The notes under the pieces: generated by a model
Database searches by the model: none
What the model saw: the letters and a program-made list of their open reading frames with translations, nothing else
What the model was told of the DNA's origin: nothing
Shown here: in pieces, positions 11,101-46,430 of the stretch
Position numbering within the stretch: position 1 is the stretch's first letter
Layout: every line of letters starts with the position of its first letter
Made by a program: the position numbers and the translations under genes
Virus record (IMG/VR): IMGVR_UViG_3300022700_000208
Location: 1 to 64,000 of that record
From: a virus
Length of the DNA: 64,000 nucleotides
Strand: one strand, 5' to 3'

Positions 11101-11124
11101 TAAAAGGGAGGCCCGAAGGCCCCC
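11101..11124 (-). terminator. Rho-independent terminator after the DUF932 gene
   Basis: Minus strand: GGGGGCC, loop TTCG, GGCCTCCC, then TTTTA. It lies 10 nt past the stop codon of the DUF932 gene and would end that transcript before the small genes to its left. Confidence 0.75.
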
Positions 11125-11134
11125 GCTTTAATAG

Positions 11135-12241
11135 TTATGCAGATTTTTCAGCAATTTCTTTCCACTGAGACTTATTAAGATCCAGGATCATTCCACCTGC
11201 TCTTTCCATCTCAATAGAATCCTCATAGGAAATTTCCTCAACTTGGTGAGCCGCTTTGGTGAATGAGTTGACAAGTCCGTATTTGGTGAGTCCTGCACCC
11301 TCATTTCCTGAGGCCAATGCAGCAAGGATTCCTTCCTTCTTATTTTCACCTTGGACTTTTGTAGCCTTCATGGCCTTATCGACAACCTTATCCAACTTAG
11401 TATTTTCAATGGGGATCTCAGTAGCTTCTTTTAGACGCTCTACTTCTCTTTCAAAATTGACTTGCTCCATGCTAGCTTTCAGGATGTCTTGCACCTTATC
11501 CCAAAACACAGCATCATCTTTTTGCAAAGTCTCATCTGATAGAACCTCAAAGACCTCTCTTTCCACCTGATTGCGTCCAGTATGAAACCGCTTCATAGCA
11601 GTATTGCTGATCATTCCATTGTCACAAACCAAACGATAGATCATGGGCTCAATTCTAAGGGAGCCTGATCCCACATCAGAATTTGAAATTGTGAGTCCAT
11701 ATTGAACGGTATCACCTTTTTGAATTTCCGTTTTTAGTTTGGGGGAAAGAGCTTTCACAAAAAGCCTACGCTCAGTGTTCTCACTGGATACCACTTCCAT
11801 TCCGTTTTCAAAGATCACAGGAAGGGCTGTCTCAAGTAACTTGTGGGAATCCAGGGGACGGTAGTAGGAAGAGAGAAAACCTCTCAAATACCCATCCAGA
11901 GACCTGATCATTCGACCTTCTGGCTTATTCCCTCTTTTGACTATTTGCCCTTTGTTTTCTAGACCATGGTTGATGTTGTCAGTGAGAAGAATTGGGTTCT
12001 CTTGCTGTAGCTTATGAAAATACCGAACGGGGATATCCAGATAAGAGGCTACTTGCTGAGAAGAATGAGAATTGAGACCGAAGGAATGCTCACCCTCATT
12101 GGTTTCAAAGGCAATGTTGACCTGTTGGTTATCCCCAACCTTTGCCTCCAATTCTTTAGTCGGAACAATAAAGTCTTGCTTTTGTTCCTGGATTCTCTCT
12201 AGCTCCTTTGCCATGTCTGTGAGAGATTTTCCTGTTAACAT
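11135..12241 (-). CDS. DUF932 family protein
   Basis: 368 residues. The pattern of LGLNSHSSQQ-like strand, YLDIPVRYFHKL, RMIRSLDGYLRGFLSSYYR (the YRPLDSH region), then GSGSLRIEPMIYRLVCDNGM and a later Arg-containing helical half is that of DUF932 (DUF945-like), common on plasmids and phages. The molecular function of the family is unknown; links to DNA metabolism and anti-restriction islands have been suggested. Strong RBS AAGGAGGTACATT. The 130 nt leader contains a hammerhead ribozyme, so its mRNA may carry a processed 5' end. Confidence 0.85.
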   Translation of the reverse strand: MLTGKSLTDMAKELERIQEQKQDFIVPTKELEAKVGDNQQVNIAFETNEGEHSFGLNSHSSQQVASYLDIPVRYFHKLQQENPILLTDNINHGLENKGQIVKRGNKPEGRMIRSLDGYLRGFLSSYYRPLDSHKLLETALPVIFENGMEVVSSENTERRLFVKALSPKLKTEIQKGDTVQYGLTISNSDVGSGSLRIEPMIYRLVCDNGMISNTAMKRFHTGRNQVEREVFEVLSDETLQKDDAVFWDKVQDILKASMEQVNFEREVERLKEATEIPIENTKLDKVVDKAMKATKVQGENKKEGILAALASGNEGAGLTKYGLVNSFTKAAHQVEEISYEDSIEMERAGGMILDLNKSQWKEIAEKSA

Positions 12242-12313
12242 AATGTACCTCCTTAGTGCCTATCCCTCTTTGGGGCTCATTCCCCTAGGGAGTCGGATAT
12301 GGGTTTATGGCCT

Positions 12314-12370
12314 ATCTCATCAGTGTCGGGAGGCCATCCCCGATCAGACGGGCATATTGCCCGTTTCGAT
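12314..12370 (-). ncRNA. Hammerhead ribozyme, type II topology
   Basis: Minus strand, reading 12370 to 12314. ATC (5' half of stem II) is followed by GAAA (12367-12364), then stem III CGGGC/GCCCG with loop AATAT, then cleavage triplet GUC. Cleavage is predicted between 12347 and 12346. Stem I is UG(A)UCGGG/CCCGACA with one bulged A and an 8-nt loop, followed by CUGAUGA (12323-12317) and GAT, closing stem II by 3 bp. All invariant core elements, CUGAUGA, GAAA and UH, are present with the A15.1-U16.1 pair. The order stem II-III-I is the open-stem-II (type II) permutation known from bacterial and phage metagenomes. It begins immediately after the stop of the gene at 12371. Confidence 0.88.
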
Positions 12371-12652
12371 TTATTTCTTTTTGACTTTGGGAAACTCAAC
12401 CTTCGTCTCGTAGAGCAGTCCCTTGTCGATCAGCTTTTGCTCCCCAATTGCATTTGCAACGTCTTTCCAGTTGGCCAGTGTGGTTCTGTTTTGATTAACA
12501 ATCTTGAGTGAATAGTCCTTGGTTTCAGTGGCACCCATTTCTATGAGGTGCTTTTTAAGTTCATCTTTTTGCTTTTTGATCTCATTTTCCTGGTCAGTTA
12601 GTTCTTTGTATTTGGCTAGTTTTTGGTTTGGTGTGAGTTTGGAAAAGCTCAT
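12371..12652 (-). CDS. Unknown coiled-coil protein
   Basis: 93 residues from ATG at 12652 (RBS GGGGGAT), preferred over an in-frame ATG at 12664 that lacks one. The N-terminal half is a charged helix (YKELTDQENEIKKQKDELKK), then TKDYSLKIVNQNRTTL and a Lys-rich tail. The layout, a helix pair followed by a short beta segment, resembles small phage proteins found next to nucleases, but no name is justified. Its stop codon directly precedes the hammerhead ribozyme. Confidence 0.7.
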   Translation of the reverse strand: MSFSKLTPNQKLAKYKELTDQENEIKKQKDELKKHLIEMGATETKDYSLKIVNQNRTTLANWKDVANAIGEQKLIDKGLLYETKVEFPKVKKK

Positions 12653-12663
12653 TTTATCCCCCA

Positions 12664-13524
12664 TTAGGCTATCTGGTCGTTTTTAAGTTCAATTCCCTGC
12701 TCTTCTAGAATGTCTTGAATGGATTGGGATTGTTTTTTGGAAGAGTCGTAACGGAATTTGTGGTTTATTTGCTTTTCAGCTTCTAGATAGCGGTTAACAA
12801 GCTTGGGATTGTGTTGGGCAGCAATGGCAATTTCTTTCTTTGAGGAATAAATGCAGATAGCGCATGAAGCTCTTGATACTCCCAATGCATAGCAAGGGTG
12901 CTTTGGCATTTCATAGAAATTGTTTTCAGCCCAAACCTTGCCTTCAGTCCAGTCTACAATAGGACTGGCTTTAATCATCATAGTGCCTTTTCTCTTATAA
13001 ACCTTCTCATTAAAGACATGCTTTCTAGCGCGGCGAGTTGATTCTTCAGCGCGTTCTCCGCAAAGAACCAAGACGTTTCCCCCAAGTTGGGAGCAAAACT
13101 TATCGCAAGGCTGAGTCTTGACCTGAGCCGTACACCATTGCTGGTTAGGGCCAGGCCACTTCTTTTGCTTTTTCTCTCCAGTTTTGCGATCAACCTGACC
13201 AGCCAATAGAAGATCAAGAACGCCTTTCTCATCCTCACGTTTCACGATGTGGAGCTTTACCCCAAGATTTTCACATTGGGCTTTTACAGTAGGCAGTGTT
13301 TCGTCCCAATCGGTATCAAGTTCAGCATGGAGAGCTATGATGCGATCAGCACCAAAAGTTCGAGTGGCCCAACAAAGAAGAGCCCCTGAATCCTTCCCTC
13401 CAGAAGTAGAGACCACAATATGATCAAAAGAGCCTTCAGCATCCATTCGCTGGAGCCTGTTCCTTAAAGCCTGCCCTCTGTGGTTGATTTTAGTCTTGTT
13501 TGGTGTGTATGTATTCTTAGCCAT
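12664..13524 (-). CDS. PAPS-reductase / DndC-like PP-loop protein
   Basis: 286 residues from ATG at 13524 (RBS TTGGGGG), not the in-frame TTG at 13536. The PP-loop VVSTSGGKDSGALLCW lies near residue 40, followed by IIALHAELDTDWDET, QQWCTAQVKTQP, LCGERAEESTRRA and, near the C-terminus, CYALGVSRASCAICIYSSK, a cysteine cluster. The family activates substrates with ATP or transfers sulfur; members include PAPS reductase and DndC of phosphorothioate DNA modification. In phages such proteins are often annotated without known role; DNA or tRNA thiolation are possibilities. It is the first gene of the leftward block beside the noncoding region. Confidence 0.85.
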   Translation of the reverse strand: MAKNTYTPNKTKINHRGQALRNRLQRMDAEGSFDHIVVSTSGGKDSGALLCWATRTFGADRIIALHAELDTDWDETLPTVKAQCENLGVKLHIVKREDEKGVLDLLLAGQVDRKTGEKKQKKWPGPNQQWCTAQVKTQPCDKFCSQLGGNVLVLCGERAEESTRRARKHVFNEKVYKRKGTMMIKASPIVDWTEGKVWAENNFYEMPKHPCYALGVSRASCAICIYSSKKEIAIAAQHNPKLVNRYLEAEKQINHKFRYDSSKKQSQSIQDILEEQGIELKNDQIA

Positions 13525-13650: not shown

Positions 13651-13983
13651 CCGCGTCTCAAATTATTAATAATTCGATTTTTGTGATGCTCTGCATGAGA
13701 GAAGATGTGTGATGGGAAGGATTACCTGGTAGCAGAGCCTGAAATTGCCGTCAATCACCAAGGCAATGAGAGCTTCTGTGAGCCCTACAGGGGCTATTAT
13801 GGTCAATCATAGGGACCTGAGCCCAAAAGCCAAACACAATCAAAATATGTGGCTCTCTGAGGCTTCTGGATATATCCCATGCCTGAGATATATCTCAAAC
13901 CGATTTGGGCATCCAATACAGCCGACACAGGGCTCCGACAGGGGGAGGAGGCCCCCGTAGTAGGGGCCTTTCCAAAACAAAGT

Positions 13984-13998
13984 GATTTCAGATACTTA
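13984..13998 (+). repeat. 15-mer repeat, copy 2
   Basis: GATTTCAGATACTTA, followed by ACTCGC. With copy 3 it forms the arms of a long imperfect hairpin (13983-14058) that encloses a second stem GTGG/CCAC. Confidence 0.6.
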
Positions 13999-14042
13999 AC
14001 TCGCTGTGGACCAGGTAAACAACCACAATATTAGCCGCTTTG

Positions 14043-14057
14043 TAAGTTACTGAAATC
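14043..14057 (-). repeat. 15-mer repeat, copy 3 (inverted)
   Basis: Minus strand GATTTCAGTAACTTA. It can pair with copy 2 over 13 of 15 positions. Confidence 0.6.
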
Positions 14058-14432
14058 AGGGCTTGTTATTTCCGTGAGCGGCGTTTCAAGCCGTTCAAAT
14101 TGGGGGGGTTTCGACCTACGCGCTCTGTGTCACCAAAATTCCATAGAAATTCCAATAACTTAAATTATTTTTATTTAAGAAAAGAAGAGTTCAAAAAAGG
14201 CTCAAAAAAGGGCCAAAAAGCCTTCTGAAGCCACAAAATAAAATATGTTTTTGCTATATTCAGCGCATTAGACGCATAGTACCGAACAACGTGCTCACTT
14301 TGTAAGAAAATTTAAGACAGAAAATTTCTGAGAGAAATCAATGAGTTATGATATTAACAAAAATTTAACTGAACACTAGGTCGGGTGCTGTCGTTAAAGA
14401 AAGAAAGTACCAAAGAAAGAAACCTCAATCGA

Positions 14433-14456
14433 ATAATTGATCTAGCGATCAATTAT
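14433..14456. other. Perfect 10-bp inverted repeat
   Basis: ATAATTGATC, loop TAGC, GATCAATTAT. Not followed by a T-run in either direction; immediately precedes a second hairpin at 14467. Confidence 0.55.
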
Positions 14457-14466
14457 ATTGTTTACC

Positions 14467-14503
14467 CTTGATTGTTCATTCGCTTCGCTCATTCACAATC
14501 AAG
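14467..14503 (+). terminator. Hairpin, possible terminator
   Basis: CTTGATTGT and ACAATCAAG pair around a loop that itself contains CG..CG, followed by TATATTTTTCTT. It could end a plus-strand transcript initiated in the noncoding region, or be part of the origin structure. Confidence 0.4.
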
Positions 14504-14627
14504 TATATTTTTCTTAGCCCCTATATTCTTTTTTAAAAAGAAACACTGAGTCAGAAGTGATCAATACTATTAAAACTGAAGAAAAAATCAATCCAAACAA
14601 AATATAACACAAAGTATTATATGTGTA

Positions 14628-14661
14628 GGGGATCTGAGGTCTGAGAGGACCTCAGATCCCC
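14628..14661. other. Perfect 14-bp hairpin
   Basis: GGGGATCTGAGGTC, loop TGAGAG, GACCTCAGATCCCC. No T-run on either side, so not a standard terminator; a cruciform, protein-binding site or stable RNA hairpin is more likely. Confidence 0.6.
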
Positions 14662-14782
14662 AAACCAAGAATTTCACAAAAGTTACATAAGAATTTTACG
14701 TAATATTTTGTATATTCCTTCAGTAAATCCTCTTTTTTCTTCATCCCCAATAAATACGATGAATTATTTTGGGGGTGACACT

Positions 14783-14851
14783 ATGCATAAAAATAATACC
14801 TGTTTACTTTTTGATTGGATTAATCTTGATCCTAGGGGTTTTTTAGTTTAA
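14783..14851 (+). CDS. Possible 22-residue leader peptide
   Basis: ATG with RBS GGGGGTG at 6 nt spacing, then 22 codons (MHKNNTCLLFDWINLDPRGF and two more) and TAA. It lies 54 nt before the next gene. The good RBS is the only support; it could be a leader or a chance frame. Confidence 0.3.
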   Translation: MHKNNTCLLFDWINLDPRGFLV

Positions 14852-14905
14852 GCGCATGTTTACCCAGTTAATTGCTCTTTTTGTTAAGTTGCAGGAGGTT
14901 TTTTA

Positions 14906-16152: not shown

Positions 16153-16228
16153 GCGGCTATCGTCTAATGGTTAAGGATACCAGACTTTCTATCTGGGGAT
16201 GGGGGTTCAAATCCCCCTGGCCGCGCCA
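16153..16228 (+). tRNA. tRNA-Glu (anticodon TTC)
   Basis: Acceptor GCGGCTA/TGGCCGC, D-arm TCGTCTAATGGTTA typical of Glu tRNAs, anticodon stem CCAGA/TCTGG with loop CTTTCTA, T-arm GGTTCAAATCC, encoded CCA. Position 37 is a pyrimidine, which is unusual. Confidence 0.9.
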
Positions 16229-16231
16229 TAT

Positions 16232-16308
16232 CCGTTAGTAGCTCAATTGGCTAGAGCGCCTGACTTCCAATCAGGAGGCTGTGGGTTCGAGCCCCACCTA
16301 GCGGTCCA
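16232..16308 (+). tRNA. tRNA-Gly (anticodon TCC)
   Basis: Acceptor CCGTTAG/CTAGCGG, anticodon stem CCTGA/TCAGG with loop CTTCCAA, T-arm GGTTCGAGCC, discriminator T, encoded CCA. Confidence 0.9.
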
Positions 16309-16309
16309 T

Positions 16310-16383
16310 AGGAGGGTGATCTAATGGTAAGAGCACAGACTCCAAATCTGTGAATGTTGGTTCAAGTCCAGCCCTTCCTGCCA
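16310..16383 (+). tRNA. tRNA-Trp (anticodon CCA)
   Basis: Acceptor AGGAGGG/CCTTCCT, anticodon stem ACAGA/TCTGT with loop CTCCAAA, T-arm GGTTCAAGTCC, discriminator G, encoded CCA. Confidence 0.92.
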
Positions 16384-16384
16384 T

Positions 16385-16461
16385 GCCTCTGTAGCTCAAT
16401 TGGCTAGAGCAGCGGTCTTGTAAACCGAAGGTTGGGTGTTCGAGTCACCCCAGGGGCTCCA
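16385..16461 (+). tRNA. tRNA-Thr (anticodon TGT)
   Basis: Acceptor GCCTCTG/CAGGGGC, anticodon loop CTTGTAA on stem GCGGT/ACCGA (one mismatch at the base), T-arm GTTCGAGTC, encoded CCA. Confidence 0.9.
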
Positions 16462-16565
16462 TTTTTCAAAAAATGCAGACTAGAATTGGGGATTTTTGAT
16501 TTTCAAATTTCTACTTGAGATTTTTTAAGGCTTGTCCGATTATAGAAGGGACTTAAGAGGAGATT

Positions 16566-16643
16566 ATGCAAACACTACGCATAGCCATGATTTTTAATGT
16601 GGATAGAGCGGATAGAGTCCTAGGTAAGGAGGGCATGGCGTAG
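16566..16643 (+). CDS. 25-residue micro-ORF inside the tRNA cluster
   Basis: ATG at 16566 preceded by AAGAGGAGATT, a strong RBS at close spacing; the peptide begins MQTLRIAMIFNVDRADRVLG and ends TAG at 16643. It is followed 35 nt later by a terminator, so it forms its own short transcript between tRNA genes. The same bases can fold (CTACGC pairs with GCGTAG across the frame), so a structured RNA is an alternative. Confidence 0.4.
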   Translation: MQTLRIAMIFNVDRADRVLGKEGMA

Positions 16644-16678
16644 GTTTGTATTAAGTTACAGTTTGATTTTGGAAACCT

Positions 16679-16709
16679 AACCCAGGCCCTAAAAAGCCTG
16701 GGTTTTTTT
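16679..16709 (+). terminator. Terminator inside the tRNA cluster
   Basis: AACCCAGGC, loop CCTAAAAA, GCCTGGGTT, then a T-run. It follows a further stem TAGGTTT/AAACCTA and is 3 nt before the next tRNA. Confidence 0.8.
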
Positions 16710-16711
16710 AT

Positions 16712-16787
16712 TCCTGGGTATCTTAATTGGCAAAGAACCCGCCTCATAAGCGGGGGTATGCTGGTTCAAGTCCAGCCCCAGGAACCA
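16712..16787 (+). tRNA. tRNA with anticodon CAT (Met or Ile2)
   Basis: Acceptor TCCTGGG/CCCAGGA, anticodon stem CCCGC/GCGGG with loop CTCATAA, T-arm GGTTCAAGTCC, discriminator A, encoded CCA. A second CAT tRNA lies at 16980; one of the two is probably the lysidine-modified Ile tRNA for AUA codons. Confidence 0.9.
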
Positions 16788-16788
16788 T

Positions 16789-16860
16789 AGCTGGATAGCT
16801 CAAGGGTAGAGCATCTGACCGATAATCAGAAGGTTGCAGGTTCAAATCCTGCTCCAGCTA
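16789..16860 (+). tRNA. tRNA-Ile (anticodon GAT)
   Basis: Acceptor AGCTGGA/TCCAGCT, anticodon stem TCTGA/TCAGA with loop CCGATAA, T-arm GGTTCAAATCC, discriminator A. Unlike its neighbours the next bases are TCA, so CCA is not encoded and must be added by the host enzyme. Confidence 0.9.
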
Positions 16861-16901
16861 TCATTTTAAAAGGAGAATTATTTATAATTAAAAAGTTATA
16901 T

Positions 16902-16977
16902 TCAGGGGTAGTTCAATTGGAAGAACGCGTGACTGTTAATCACGTAGTTGCTGGTTCGAGTCCAGCCCTCTGAGCCA
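16902..16977 (+). tRNA. tRNA-Asn (anticodon GTT)
   Basis: Acceptor TCAGGGG/CCTCTGA, anticodon stem CGTGA/TCACG with loop CTGTTAA, T-arm GGTTCGAGTCC, discriminator G, encoded CCA. Confidence 0.9.
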
Positions 16978-16979
16978 AT

Positions 16980-17053
16980 TGCGGGATAGTGTAAAGGCAA
17001 CATGCAGGTCTCATAAGCCTGAGCTGGGTGTTCGAGTCACCCTCCCGCAACCA
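16980..17053 (+). tRNA. tRNA with anticodon CAT (Met or Ile2)
   Basis: Acceptor TGCGGGA/TCCCGCA, short D-arm AGTGTAAAGGCAACA, anticodon stem CAGGT/GCCTG with loop CTCATAA, T-arm GTTCGAGTC, encoded CCA. Confidence 0.88.
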
Positions 17054-17055
17054 AT

Positions 17056-17132
17056 CTGAGAGTAGTTCAATTGGAGAGAACATTGCCCTTCTAAGGCAAA
17101 TGCTGAAGGTTCGAGTCCTTCCTCTCAGGCCA
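17056..17132 (+). tRNA. tRNA-Arg (anticodon TCT)
   Basis: Acceptor CTGAGAG/CTCTCAG, anticodon stem TTGCC/GGCAA with loop CTTCTAA, T-arm GGTTCGAGTCC, discriminator G, encoded CCA. Reads AGA, a codon common in the phage genes here. Confidence 0.9.
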
Positions 17133-17133
17133 T

Positions 17134-17209
17134 GCAGGGATAGCTCAGATGGTAGAGCACTGGATTGAAAATCCAGGTGTCAGTGGTTCAATTCCACTTC
17201 CCTGCACCA
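17134..17209 (+). tRNA. tRNA-Phe (anticodon GAA)
   Basis: Acceptor GCAGGGA/TCCCTGC, anticodon stem CTGGA/TCCAG with loop TTGAAAA, T-arm GGTTCAATTCC, discriminator A, encoded CCA. Confidence 0.92.
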
Positions 17210-17213
17210 ATTG

Positions 17214-17288
17214 GGGGCTGTGATGTAATGGCTAACATATCGGACTGTCTATCCGAAACTAGGGGTTCGATTCCCCTCAGCCCCGCCA
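17214..17288 (+). tRNA. tRNA-Asp (anticodon GTC)
   Basis: Acceptor GGGGCTG/CAGCCCC, anticodon stem TCGGA/TCCGA with loop CTGTCTA, T-arm GGTTCGATTCC, discriminator G, encoded CCA. Last tRNA of the cluster. Confidence 0.9.
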
Positions 17289-33974: not shown

Positions 33975-36542
33975 TTGGCATCTAAGAGTAACTGGCAATG
34001 GCAAAAAATGGAAAAACGAGATTCGTTCGATATAATAAGGAAGTCTCTAGCCAAGAGAAGGCTATTAGATTTTACCCAGCACACAAAGCCAAATTACAAA
34101 GCAAATTGGCACCATAAACTGATATGTGACAAGCTTGATAAGTTTATAGAAGGTAAGATCAAAAGACTGATGATCCTAATGCCTCCTAGGCACGGTAAAC
34201 AAGTTTCTTTTGATACTCCTGTTTTTACTCCTTCGGGTTGGACAATCCATGGAGATCTTCAAGTTGGTGATGAGGTGTTTGGCCCTGATGGGAATCCTAC
34301 TAAAGTGATAGCTTTAAGTGAGGAGTCTTATCAAGATATTGAGGTAGAATTATCTAATGGTCAGATTATTGAGTGCCATGAAAATCATGAGTGGTCCTTT
34401 TATGATAGGTCTCGTAGGGTTTGGAGAACTAAAGAGACAAATTGGTTTTTAAATAGGAAAGTTGTAAGTTCAGGAAGATGTATATTTCAACTTCCTAATA
34501 TCAATCCTCTTTATTTTGCTGAAAAAAATCTTGAGGTTGATCCTTATTTTCTTGGAGTGTGGTTAGGAGATGGAACATCAATTAAGCCTACTCTGAATTT
34601 GTGCTCTGATGATGAGGGTTATATATTATCTGGAATCCCCTATAATTTTAGCTCTAGGGCTGTCCATAAAGATACAAAGGTCCCAAGTATAAATTATTAT
34701 GGGGAAGTCAAAGATAATATTGAAAAATTAGGTCTTTTCGGGAATAAGCATATTCCAAAAGATTATTTATACTCATCTTTAGAACAGAGAGTTCAACTTT
34801 TGGCAGGTCTTATTGATTCAGATGGGCATGTTGAAAAAGAAGGAAGAGTTAGGTTTGTTAATACAAATAAGGATTTGATTGATGGAGTTTATGAGCTTCT
34901 CAGAACACTCGGACAAAGACCTTATCTTACTTCTCAGGAAGCTCATAGCAGTACAACTCTTCCTATAAATTCTGACAAAAAATGTTATGCAGTAGGTTTT
35001 CAGCCTACAATTGATATACCTACTAGGGTTCCAAGAAAAAAGATAAAGAGGATTGTAACTCAGAGAAGAGTTGGGATTAAAGATGTAAGGAGAGTTGATA
35101 AAAAGACTAAAGGAAATTGCATTCAAGTTGATAGGGAGGATGGTCTTTATTTAGTTGGGGAGAGTCTTATCCCCACACACAATTCAGAATTAGTTAGTAG
35201 GAGACTTCCTGCTTACATATTTGGGAAAAATCCAGATGCTCAGGTGATCTCAGCCACGTATGGAGCTGAGCTATCACAGAGATTGAATAGGGATGTTCAG
35301 AGGATTATTGATTCTGATCCTTATAGAGATTTGTTCCCAGAAACACAGCTTTCTTCCAAGAATGTAAAGACAACCTCAAAGATGAGTTATTTAAGAAACT
35401 CAGATATCTTTGAGATAGTAGGAAGAAAGGGAGTTTATCAGTGCGCTGGAGTTGGAGGCGCATTGACTGGTATGGGAGCCAATTATGTGTTGATTGATGA
35501 TCCCTTTAAGAACCAGGAAGAGGCAGACTCCCCGACGATAAGAGAAAAAGTTTGGGATTTTTATTCCTCTGTTCTTTATACCAGGCTTGAAACCCAGCTC
35601 AGTGATGGAAGCGTAGTCAATAGTGATGGGGGAATTCTTCTTACTACAACCAGATGGCATGAGGATGATTTAGCTGGAAGGCTAATCACTCAAATGCATG
35701 AAGATCCTGAGAATGCTGATCAATGGGAGATCATCAATCTCCCAGCAATTATTGAAACTCAGGAGGAGGAAGAAAATTCTATTGATCCCAGGGTAATGGG
35801 AGAGGCTCTTTGGCCTGATAAATTTGATGAGAAAAAGCTTCACGTTATTAAGTCCACTCTTGGTTCCAGAAAGTGGGCTGCTCTTTATGAGGGAAGACCT
35901 GCTCCTGATAAGGGAGACATTGTAGAAAGAGAGTGGTGGCAATACTATACAGATCTTCCTGAAGAGCTTGATTTCAAGCTTATTTCTGTGGACTGTGCTT
36001 TTAAGGGAACCAAGAAATCAGACTTTGTAGCTATACAGGTCTGGGGCAAAAAAGGAGTTCACAAATATCTGATCCATCAGGTTCGAGCCAAGATGGGTTT
36101 CAATGCAACTGTGGAGGCTATCAGGCAAGTTAAATACAAATATCCTGATGCTATGGAAGTTCTTATTGAGGAAAAAGCCAACGGGGCGGCTGTTATAGAA
36201 AGTCTTAAGAGTGAGATTGAGGGAGTAACTGCCTTCAATCCTAAAGATTCTAAAGAGTCCAGGGCCAAGGCTAATGCTGTGGCTCCCCAGATTGAGGCTG
36301 GAAATGTTCATATTCCCGATCCCTCAGTTGCTTCTTGGGTTGGTGATTATGTTGAAGAGTGGGCTGTGTTCCCGAACAGTCAGAATGATGATCAGGTGGA
36401 TGCCACATCTCAAGCTCTTATCAAGATGCATCAGACAGCCTATGAATGGGTTGATGTGGTTGATCATCTTGAGCAGGGAAAAGGCATTGAAGGTCTTCCT
36501 CCAGAAGTGGCTGAGCAACTTTGGCCTAATCATGCTGGATAA
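33975..36542 (+). CDS. terL: Terminase large subunit interrupted by an intein
   Basis: 855 residues including a 328-residue intein; the spliced protein is 527. Before the intein: LMILMPPRHGK (Walker A, residues 65-75); after it: SELVSRRLPAYIFGK, so splicing restores the terminase P-loop PPRHGKSE. Walker B is NYVLIDDPFKN (~500). The RNase H-like nuclease follows: LISVDCAFKGTKKSDFVAI (~670), VLIEEKANGAAVIESL (~730) and NDDQVDATSQAL (~803). It pumps and cuts DNA at the portal. The start is uncertain: TTG at 33975 without RBS, or ATG at 34008. Confidence 0.93.
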   Translation: MASKSNWQWQKMEKRDSFDIIRKSLAKRRLLDFTQHTKPNYKANWHHKLICDKLDKFIEGKIKRLMILMPPRHGKQVSFDTPVFTPSGWTIHGDLQVGDEVFGPDGNPTKVIALSEESYQDIEVELSNGQIIECHENHEWSFYDRSRRVWRTKETNWFLNRKVVSSGRCIFQLPNINPLYFAEKNLEVDPYFLGVWLGDGTSIKPTLNLCSDDEGYILSGIPYNFSSRAVHKDTKVPSINYYGEVKDNIEKLGLFGNKHIPKDYLYSSLEQRVQLLAGLIDSDGHVEKEGRVRFVNTNKDLIDGVYELLRTLGQRPYLTSQEAHSSTTLPINSDKKCYAVGFQPTIDIPTRVPRKKIKRIVTQRRVGIKDVRRVDKKTKGNCIQVDREDGLYLVGESLIPTHNSELVSRRLPAYIFGKNPDAQVISATYGAELSQRLNRDVQRIIDSDPYRDLFPETQLSSKNVKTTSKMSYLRNSDIFEIVGRKGVYQCAGVGGALTGMGANYVLIDDPFKNQEEADSPTIREKVWDFYSSVLYTRLETQLSDGSVVNSDGGILLTTTRWHEDDLAGRLITQMHEDPENADQWEIINLPAIIETQEEEENSIDPRVMGEALWPDKFDEKKLHVIKSTLGSRKWAALYEGRPAPDKGDIVEREWWQYYTDLPEELDFKLISVDCAFKGTKKSDFVAIQVWGKKGVHKYLIHQVRAKMGFNATVEAIRQVKYKYPDAMEVLIEEKANGAAVIESLKSEIEGVTAFNPKDSKESRAKANAVAPQIEAGNVHIPDPSVASWVGDYVEEWAVFPNSQNDDQVDATSQALIKMHQTAYEWVDVVDHLEQGKGIEGLPPEVAEQLWPNHAG
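34200..35183 (+). mobile_element. Intein with LAGLIDADG endonuclease in the TerL P-loop
   Basis: 328 residues inserted between Lys and Ser of the Walker A motif. Block A reads QVSFDTPVFTPSGW: the first residue is Gln, not the usual Cys or Ser. Block B-like ECHENHEWSF follows. The two LAGLIDADG motifs are DPYFLGVWLGDGTS and QLLAGLIDSDGHV. The C-terminal end is YLVGESLIPTHN followed by Ser+1. Block-level resemblance to the AAA+ protein intein (DPYYLGIWLGDG, NNKHIP, LLAGLLDTDG) indicates common origin. Confidence 0.93.
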
Positions 36543-43583: not shown

Positions 43584-46430
43584 ATGAGTCGAGCAAAGTC
43601 ACTCCTGAATACATTCAATGAAGCCAGAATTGGTGACGATAAAACTCAGCATAATGATCGGTTTGCTGTCCTTGGGGGAGGTAATGCCTATCTTCCAACA
43701 GGAAAAAGGCAGACAGCCGAGAAGTTAACTGCTGGGGCTTACGTTCCTAAAATGAGCCCTCAAGGTGTTGTGTTTGAAAAGGCTCAGATCAACACTGATG
43801 AGATCCTTCGCTTTGAGGATGAAAGACAAAAGAAGGTTGTCAAAAGAGTAGAGAAGTTTTGGGAGCAGGGCCAACGCTATAATCAGTTTGGCTTTACTCA
43901 TTCCTTCGGTCTTCTCATGGAAGGTCCCCCAGGCAGTGGAAAATGTCTGGGTAGAGGGACTCCTGTTCTCATGTACGATGGATCTACCAAGAAAGTAGAG
44001 GATGTAGTTGTAGGGGATAAATTGATGGGAGATGATTCTACTCCTAGAACTGTTAAATCAACTACTAGTGGATATGAGCAGATGTACAGGGTTGTTCCTG
44101 TAAAAGGTGATCCTTATGTAGTTAATGAATCTCATATCCTTAGCCTTAAGATGTCCTGCGCAGCAGGAGGAAAAGAAAAAGGTGAGAAGGTAGATATCTC
44201 TGTAAGAGAGTATATGGAAAGAAGTAATCATTTTAAGCATTATGCTAAAGGATATCGAGTAGGAGTCGACTTTGAAGAAAAAGAGGTTCCTCTAGATCCT
44301 TATTATCTTGGGATATGGCTAGGAGATGGAAACAATAAGGATCAGAGTATTTCCAACCCAGAGGAAGAAATTCTTGAGTATCTTTATTCTTTGGGTGAAG
44401 AAAGAGGGCTTCATGTATATGCTGATACTCAAGAAGGAAAATGTCCTTTAATAAAGCTAGTGAAAAAAGAAGGATTATATAATAACCTTCTTGATTCTTT
44501 GAGAGAACTTGAGCTTATTAACAATAAGCATATCCCCCATATTTATAAAGCCAATTCAAAAGAGAATAGACTTCAGCTTTTGGCTGGTTTATTGGACACA
44601 GATGGTTATTATTGTAATGGTTATTATGAAATAATGAGCAATAACTCAGTCTTGAAGGATGATATTCTTTATCTTGCAAAATCTCTTGGTTTTGCTGCCT
44701 ACTATAAAGAAAAAGAGGCTAAGTTAGAAAATTGGGATGAGCCAAGGACCTATTATAGGATATCTATTTCAGGGCATGTTGATGAGATTCCATGTAAAGT
44801 GGAAAGGAAGCAAGCAGAGCCAAGAAAACAAAAGAAAGATGTTCTTTCTACGGGAATCACTTTAGAGAAGTTGGAAGTTGATGAGTATTTTGGTTTTGAG
44901 ATTGATGGTAATAGGAGATTTCTCCTGGGGGATTTTACTGTTACTCACAATACCGTGATAGTAAAACAAGTTCTTGAGGATGCTATCAATCAAGATCATA
45001 TTGCTCTCATTTGCAGGAATGTGGATGATTTGGCTGAAGGTCTTAATGCTCTAAGAGAGGTTGAGCCTGATCGCAAGATCCTTTGTGTGATGGAAGATAT
45101 TGAAAACCTCATCAAGTTTGGGGATCAATCTCTCATTCAGCTCATGGATGGGGACAATAAGCAAGAGGGTGTGTTCTACCTGGGAACTACAAACCATCCT
45201 GAGAAGATCCATCCCCGTGTTAAAAGAAAAGGCAGGTTCTCAGAGACCATTCATGTTCCGTTTCCTCCCAAAGAGGGAAGACAAGCCTATCTCAAGAAAA
45301 AGCTTGGCCAGCATGAGGATGCCAAGGAAATCAATCGCATTGTGAAAGCCACAGAGGGCCTTAGTTTTGCCCACCTCAGGGACTACATCATTGGGACCTA
45401 TTGTGAGGAGAGAAACTCGGATGAGGTTCTCAGCGAAATTAAGGACGTGTCAGTGGAGGAGCTTAAATCCCAGGGCCTTACCTATGATGAGTTTAAAGAA
45501 AAGCTTGAGGAGGCTCTTGGAGTCCAGAGCACCGCTTCATATAACCAGTCCTTGAATGAGGATACAGTCCGTACTCCTAGCGATAAAGCCAAGAGCAAAT
45601 CTCAGCGCCGCCGAATGGAGAGAATGAAGAGCAAATATAAGAAGCAAAAGAGCGAGTCCAGGGCTTCTAAGCTCTTAGAGGAGATGGATGATTCTGGGTT
45701 CAGTCTGATTGATCCTGAAGAGATCAAAAAGGAATTCAGGCAGAAGATCAAGAACTTTGGCATTGAGGGAGTCAATGTTGAGGATGTCACTGTAGACATG
45801 GAAAATGATATCATTGTCAATTTCTCTGATGATGAGGGAGATGAACTCCTGGCCATTTTCCAACACAATGAAGAGGAAGCCTGGGTTCTTATTGTCGATG
45901 ATGAGGAGGAAGCTGAAAATGAAGAGGGAGAAGCCATTATTGTGGATCTTAGTCCTCTTCCATTTGCCCTTAGGGATACCCCAATCGGTAAATATTTAGA
46001 GCTTGCCACTCTTGAATGGATGAATAAGTCCACTCTTGTTTCCATCCTAAGAGCTGGGGAGATCGGATATGATAAGCAGATCAAAGACTATAGCAATAGC
46101 TATGATGCTTATGGGAACCGAGTTGTAGCTCCAGCCGAAGCCAAAGTCAGTGAGGAAGATCTTAAGAAACATCTTCAGGAAAGTGGTGTTGATGAGCTTA
46201 AGAGAACAGTTGTCAGAGGAGGAAAGAGAGTCAAACTCCCTGTGGTGATAAAGAAGAAAAAGAAAAAGCTCACTGGTAAACAAAAGGCAGGCATCAGAAA
46301 AGGTGCAAGGAAAAGAAAAGCCAAGAAGGCTCAGATCCAGAGGAAGAGAAAGAAATCCCTGAAGAAAAGAAAGCAAATGGGCCTTAAAAAGGGAGGTCTT
46401 GGGACTCGAAGAAAGCTCAAAGGAAGATAA
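43584..46430 (+). CDS. AAA+ ATPase with leader, intein and fused C-terminal domain
   Basis: 948 residues, 612 after splicing. Leader-family start MSRAKSLLNTFNEARIGDD. AAA+ core: Walker A GPPGSGK (114-120) completed by Thr457 after the intein, Walker B ILCVMEDIEN, sensor-1 LGTTNHPEKI, and RKGRFSETIHVPF with the Arg finger. After ~residue 660 comes an internal leader copy SRASKLLEEMDDSGFSL and a domain like member 12 (DTPIGKYLELATLEWM), then a very basic tail (LTGKQKAGIRKGARKRKAKK and onwards). It looks like an ATPase fused to a whole leader-family protein. Role in head assembly or DNA remodelling is inferred from position between portal and protease. Confidence 0.85.
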   Translation: MSRAKSLLNTFNEARIGDDKTQHNDRFAVLGGGNAYLPTGKRQTAEKLTAGAYVPKMSPQGVVFEKAQINTDEILRFEDERQKKVVKRVEKFWEQGQRYNQFGFTHSFGLLMEGPPGSGKCLGRGTPVLMYDGSTKKVEDVVVGDKLMGDDSTPRTVKSTTSGYEQMYRVVPVKGDPYVVNESHILSLKMSCAAGGKEKGEKVDISVREYMERSNHFKHYAKGYRVGVDFEEKEVPLDPYYLGIWLGDGNNKDQSISNPEEEILEYLYSLGEERGLHVYADTQEGKCPLIKLVKKEGLYNNLLDSLRELELINNKHIPHIYKANSKENRLQLLAGLLDTDGYYCNGYYEIMSNNSVLKDDILYLAKSLGFAAYYKEKEAKLENWDEPRTYYRISISGHVDEIPCKVERKQAEPRKQKKDVLSTGITLEKLEVDEYFGFEIDGNRRFLLGDFTVTHNTVIVKQVLEDAINQDHIALICRNVDDLAEGLNALREVEPDRKILCVMEDIENLIKFGDQSLIQLMDGDNKQEGVFYLGTTNHPEKIHPRVKRKGRFSETIHVPFPPKEGRQAYLKKKLGQHEDAKEINRIVKATEGLSFAHLRDYIIGTYCEERNSDEVLSEIKDVSVEELKSQGLTYDEFKEKLEEALGVQSTASYNQSLNEDTVRTPSDKAKSKSQRRRMERMKSKYKKQKSESRASKLLEEMDDSGFSLIDPEEIKKEFRQKIKNFGIEGVNVEDVTVDMENDIIVNFSDDEGDELLAIFQHNEEEAWVLIVDDEEEAENEEGEAIIVDLSPLPFALRDTPIGKYLELATLEWMNKSTLVSILRAGEIGYDKQIKDYSNSYDAYGNRVVAPAEAKVSEEDLKKHLQESGVDELKRTVVRGGKRVKLPVVIKKKKKKLTGKQKAGIRKGARKRKAKKAQIQRKRKKSLKKRKQMGLKKGGLGTRRKLKGR
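43944..44951 (+). mobile_element. Intein with LAGLIDADG endonuclease in the AAA+ P-loop
   Basis: 336 residues between Lys and Thr of GPPGSGKT. Block A CLGRGTPVLMYDGSTKKVE with Cys1; block B-like VVNESHILSL; LAGLIDADG motifs DPYYLGIWLGDGNN and LQLLAGLLDTDGYY; C-terminal GNRRFLLGDFTVTHN followed by Thr+1. The insertion point in the P-loop is the same as in TerL. Confidence 0.94.

Follow-up and report, generated by a model that had tools for sequence, protein, structure and literature searches.

A probable type II hammerhead ribozyme in a phage operon and the placement of its viral relatives at stop codons

The viral record IMGVR_UViG_3300022700_000208 carries a real type II hammerhead ribozyme, stabilised by a pseudoknot, which probably acts as punctuation in a phage operon. 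The ribozyme occupies positions 12307-12370 on the minus strand of the window, the stretch of 64,000 nucleotides (positions 1 to 64,000 of the record) that was analysed. Judged by its sequence, it is a well-formed, ordinary type II hammerhead with no difference of kind from the members of Rfam family RF02276. More interesting than the element itself are the stop-codon rule seen in its viral relatives and a viral contig that holds 24 such ribozymes. The type II fold and the proposal that it processes phage mRNA were already published in 2011 (PMC3088659); the addition made here is the genomic context.

The covariance model of RF02276 (Hammerhead_II) matches 12371-12306 of the minus strand over its full length (model positions 1-66 of 66). 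The score is 39.8 bits against a gathering cut-off of 37, a margin of only 2.8 bits. The first-pass annotation had called a type II hammerhead on this strand and proposed such a search; the score above threshold bears out the identification. With the 64-kb window searched against all 4227 Rfam families, the match has an E-value of 1.3e-4 and is the sole non-tRNA match above cut-off. No other credible ribozyme is present in the window, even at a permissive threshold, and the whole 81.6-kb virus record contains a single copy of the type II hammerhead. A loose in-house hammerhead descriptor yields about 0.37 chance matches per shuffled window; the weight therefore rests on the Rfam score, the pseudoknot, and the context.

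The conserved hammerhead core (CUGANGA, GAAA, and an NUH cleavage triplet) is complete, and three stems surround it. Stem II, of 3 bp and open, is formed by ATC (12368-12370) and GAT (12316-12314). The GAAA segment of the core (12364-12367) follows the ATC strand, and its last A pairs with U12348 according to the sequence and the Rfam alignment. Stem III is a 5-bp hairpin, CGGGC-AATAT-GCCCG (12349-12363), extended by this A-U pair. The GUC triplet (12349-12347) comes next, and the predicted cleavage site lies directly after it, between C17 (12347) and U (12346). Stem I (12324-12346), likewise closed by a loop, consists of 2 + 5 bp (TG-A-TCGGG/CCCGA-CA) with one bulged A (12344) and an 8-nt loop. 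It leads into the second core segment, CUGAUGA (12317-12323), and the GAT strand (12314-12316). All the elements that had been named beforehand were recovered base by base on the minus strand, and the cut site proposed at 12347/12346 agrees with the family consensus position. The element does not end at 12314 as first drawn, a boundary 7 nt too short, since the tail AGGCCAT (12307-12313) had been overlooked.

This tail pairs with the strand ATGGCCT (12331-12337) in the loop of stem I. The two segments, 12337-12331 and 12313-12307, are exact reverse complements and form a perfect 7-bp pseudoknot. We tested the pairing in 79 further viral type II hammerheads, all distinct and all with a stem II of 3 bp; the window sequence was left out. 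In the four central pseudoknot columns, Watson-Crick pairs are found in 57, 65, 67, and 60 of the 79 sequences, compared with shuffled means of 45, 39, 31, and 36. In each column none of 1000 shuffles reaches the observed pairing, and several pair types occur. The signal vanishes when the register is slid by one or two positions. The commonest run of pairs in this sample is five; the window has seven. A loop I-tail pseudoknot is found in most type II hammerheads, where its disruption abolishes fast cleavage, and mutation with compensation shows fast cleavage to depend on it (PMC3088659). Similar phage ribozymes, tandem sets included, cleave in vitro, and one set also cleaves in E. coli (PMC3088659).

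Stem II was correctly read as 3 bp long. The accompanying caution, that with so short a stem activity may depend on loop contacts, is resolved: 3-bp (and 2-bp) stems are normal in RF02276, and this one is backed by the overlooked pseudoknot. Among the relatives, the combination of a 23-nt stem I and a 3-bp stem II ranks second in frequency, and the bulged A of stem I (the TGA variant) recurs in loci L026, L064, and L114. The minimum-energy nested fold of the element is not the active fold; nested folding alone misses the latter, as expected with a pseudoknot. Stem III and the pseudoknot helix together amount to -22.3 kcal/mol, versus -17.5 kcal/mol for the three nested stems with the pseudoknot uncounted.

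The ribozyme occupies the sole large gap (129 nt) of a tightly packed minus-strand operon, in which most neighbouring genes overlap or nearly do. The upstream cistron is a 97-aa ORF (12371-12664) with no confident family match; it shares 1 nt with the end of the PAPS-reductase-like gene before it. Its UAA stop codon (12373-12371) abuts the ATC strand of stem II (12370-12368), as had been claimed. The downstream cistron (11135-12241) starts at 12241, encodes a 368-aa protein, and was rightly assigned to DUF932 (Pfam PF06067, 1.6e-9; phrog_1362, 3.8e-50). Its leader (12242-12306) contains a weak hairpin (12290-12264) and the strong Shine-Dalgarno (SD) sequence AAGGAGG (12254-12248). The ATG that follows lies 75 nt from CUGAUGA, at the long end of the family range. 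Just past the DUF932 stop codon is a terminator-like hairpin (11107-11124, minus strand) with a UUCG loop and a CTTTTATATT tail; it is a consensus match, and such sites are no commoner than in shuffled sequence. Given this hairpin, DUF932 may be a single-gene message with the ribozyme at one end and a terminator at the other. In a promoter and terminator scan of the ribozyme gap, matches were likewise no commoner than in shuffles.

The record is that of a tailed phage, with a capsid protein nearest to those of Rhizobium phages (43%). Single-sequence searches of viral contigs and phages with the DUF932, PAPS-reductase, and 97-aa proteins returned no close relative, and so none in which the ribozyme is conserved in place. 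The capsid protein yielded a single 55% relative. A type II hammerhead is absent both from the contig of that relative and from Rhizobium phage RHph_TM2_3B, whose capsid belongs to the same family (43%). Elsewhere in the window, 11 tRNA genes are clustered at 16153-17288. About 900 bases (about 13960-14905) between the minus-strand operon and plus-strand genes contain no ORF of 50 aa and are probably a divergent control region. A probable intein with a homing-endonuclease domain (LAGLIDADG_3, Hom_end) is found in the large terminase (33975-36542), and another probable intein (Pfam Hom_end_hint) is inserted after the Walker A motif GPPGSGK of an AAA ATPase (43584-46430).

Most likely, the ribozyme cuts its own mRNA at the predicted site. 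The minus-strand operon transcript, running from the PAPS-reductase-like gene through the 97-aa ORF and the ribozyme into DUF932 and beyond, would fold and self-cleave between 12347 and 12346. Its upstream product would then have the stem III hairpin and a 2',3'-cyclic phosphate at its 3' end, 24 nt past the stop codon. On the DUF932 message, a 5'-OH would be followed by the hairpin of stem I. A closed hairpin on each new end should slow exonucleases and 5'-monophosphate-dependent decay; with both products so protected, the neighbouring cistrons could have separate lifetimes. From the order of the parts, no permutation other than type II gives both sides of the cut a closed hairpin of their own, which may be a reason for the use of type II between cistrons. 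With the stop codon in direct contact with stem II, the core should be covered whenever a ribosome terminates at the UAA; usual footprints would extend over about the stem II strand, GAAA, and the first part of stem III. Cleavage would then be delayed during termination of the upstream gene and occur between ribosomes.

To place the window ribozyme among its relatives, we collected 120 stretches by a pattern scan of IMG/VR; after a structural filter they gave 164 distinct type II hammerheads, the window's included. A ribozyme was called stop-anchored when its GAAA starts no more than 12 nt from the stop codon of an upstream same-strand ORF of at least 60 codons. By this definition, 142 of the 161 ribozymes with enough upstream sequence (88%) are stop-anchored, compared with 6.1% of random same-strand positions. 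The offsets have sharp modes at -2 (mostly UAG, with its G within stem II) and at -3 (mostly UAA). The window ribozyme belongs to the second class: 3 nt separate its stop codon from GAAA. In new loci picked up by a second scan, for which another pattern was used, 21 of 24 ribozymes are stop-anchored. Among control regex matches without stems II and III, 3 of 11 lie near stops, too few to weigh against the 6% background. Downstream, an SD sequence and a start codon are present within 120 nt in 148 of 163 relatives; the median distance from CTGATGA to the start is 26 nt, and only 6 of the 148 have a distance of 70 nt or more. Stop-codon docking is mentioned neither in PMC3088659 nor in the other literature searched, a search whose scope took in few subscription papers.

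Many records hold several ribozymes. The extreme is a 57-kb viral contig (G008), which carries 24 type II hammerheads, all above the Rfam cut-off, within about 7.6 kb. There is mostly one per gene junction, lying directly past the stop codon and about 20 nt ahead of the next start codon. In locus L140 of this contig (G008:C1:8500-19000, minus strand; the record of L015), the order between two small genes is mostly stop codon, ribozyme, GAGGTGA-like SD sequence, and ATG. The tandem sets reported in 2011 are far smaller than this operon. Loci L009, L047 (G023), L070 (G033), L023 (G010), and L010 (G006) come from other viral contigs in which successive gene junctions carry type II hammerheads, 6 to 11 of them and all on the same strand.

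The idea that the window ribozyme processes phage mRNA fits well with this comparative evidence. We tentatively go one step further: docking on stop codons might let the terminating ribosome mask the core, so that cleavage is coupled to translation and yields translated, hairpin-capped single-gene mRNAs. Operons with some two dozen ribozymes would be the extreme of such an arrangement and the window a one-copy example. We regard this as possible, at somewhat less than even probability.

No DUF932 homologue was found in the 120 hammerhead-bearing viral loci. Seven phage records were checked in the reverse direction, and their DUF932 homologues have no hammerhead nearby. An alignment-based scan gave 80 further DUF932 loci, of which four are in viral records with a type II hammerhead above cut-off; a comparison set of 50 random viral records, similar in total length, has none (Fisher p = 0.30). 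By their coordinates, all four positive records have at least one hammerhead on the DUF932 strand and no more than 5 kb upstream. A fixed partnership between ribozyme and DUF932 is thus not established from either side. In one of these loci, L245, a small ORF ends in UAA, a hammerhead begins at the next base, and DUF932 starts 24 nt later behind AGGAGG. The window and L245 DUF932 proteins are only 28% identical, so the order of small ORF, stop codon, ribozyme, and DUF932 can, as far as these sequences indicate, recur in a divergent phage. Hammerheads flank the DUF932 gene region of L245 (2585-4345), the middle one being that which repeats the window order and a third, at 2585, having a CUGAAGA core. 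The L245 gene is a distant relative of that of a Pelagibacter phage.

The lack of a constant gene partner is what would be expected if the ribozyme, active in itself, did not serve its neighbours but had been carried along with, or left over from, a phage segment that is mobile or recombines. Cleavage would then be tolerated only in gaps, and purifying selection against insertion into genes would also leave ribozymes behind stop codons. In addition, associations of hammerheads with other ribozymes and with Mu-like phage genes have been reported, the reason not being given (PMC10085705). However, tolerance alone would not place 88% of the ribozymes within 12 nt of a stop codon with modes at -2 and -3, nor would it fill nearly all junctions of the 24-ribozyme array with differing sequences. 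We therefore consider the passenger explanation unlikely. It is improbable, too, that the main role is control of DUF932 translation, with the 65-nt leader between pseudoknot and start codon acting as a regulated, ribozyme-based or riboswitch-like element. The leader is indeed longer than in nearly all relatives, a hairpin can form ahead of the SD sequence, and the DUF932 gene of the divergent phage also has a ribozyme, 24 nt upstream. Nevertheless, the leader folds no more stably than shuffled sequence (z = 0.11), the SD sequence, over 50 nt away from the ribozyme, does not pair with it in the centroid fold, and the Rfam search finds no ligand-binding motif.

Two further explanations have little to recommend them. 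A terminator-like site called at 12346-12366 on the plus strand could mean that the stem III hairpin alone is functional, working either as an intrinsic terminator or to stabilise the 3' end, and that the hammerhead match is secondary. But the plus strand is the wrong one for the operon and no plus-strand gene ends there, terminator-like sites are equally frequent in shuffled sequence, and the intact core, stem I, stem II, and the 7-bp pseudoknot would be left unexplained; we consider this very improbable. Hammerheads in viroids and retrozymes serve to produce circular RNA (PMC4918200), and cleavage followed by ligation to a circular or excised RNA would be the corresponding role here. It would require two ribozymes or a repeat unit, whereas the 81.6-kb record has one type II hammerhead, and a search by Perreault et al. 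for products of this type, made with phage arrays, was negative (PMC3088659). This outcome is hardly to be expected.

Of the readings weighed, punctuation of the operon by a self-cleaving ribozyme is the one we retain, and it can be compared with known systems. RNase III sites between the early genes of T7 allow a polycistronic phage mRNA to be cut between cistrons, leaving hairpin ends. In T7 a host protein makes the cut, whereas in the window the RNA would cut itself; the two would otherwise work similarly. The window ribozyme resembles the RF02276 hammerheads described before in its core, permutation, short stem II, loop I-tail pseudoknot, and phage intergenic position (PMC3088659). It differs from most members in having a perfect 7-bp pseudoknot and, as in few others, a bulged A in stem I. 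Tandem hammerheads flank phage genes, and processing of long transcripts into gene-length mRNAs was proposed for them (Perreault et al. 2011, PMC3088659). As in the prophage arrays of the Agrobacterium ardA region, Azorhizobium, and Clostridium scindens, the window ribozyme lies between genes on the coding strand; unlike in those arrays, it is the only one in its record, and its neighbour is DUF932 rather than ardA (PMC3088659). In haloviruses HF1 and HF2, HHphage precedes a helicase gene by 13 nt (PMC3088659). It is similarly placed just upstream of one phage gene (an early gene in that case), but is a structural variant in an archaeal virus next to a different gene.

The biological role of phage hammerheads has been unsettled since their discovery, and the survey of relatives makes it easier to test. 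What emerges from it is a rule in plain numbers: close to nine in ten of these ribozymes begin at the stop codon of the ORF before them. Together with the 24-ribozyme contig, this rule makes translation-coupled mRNA processing directly testable.
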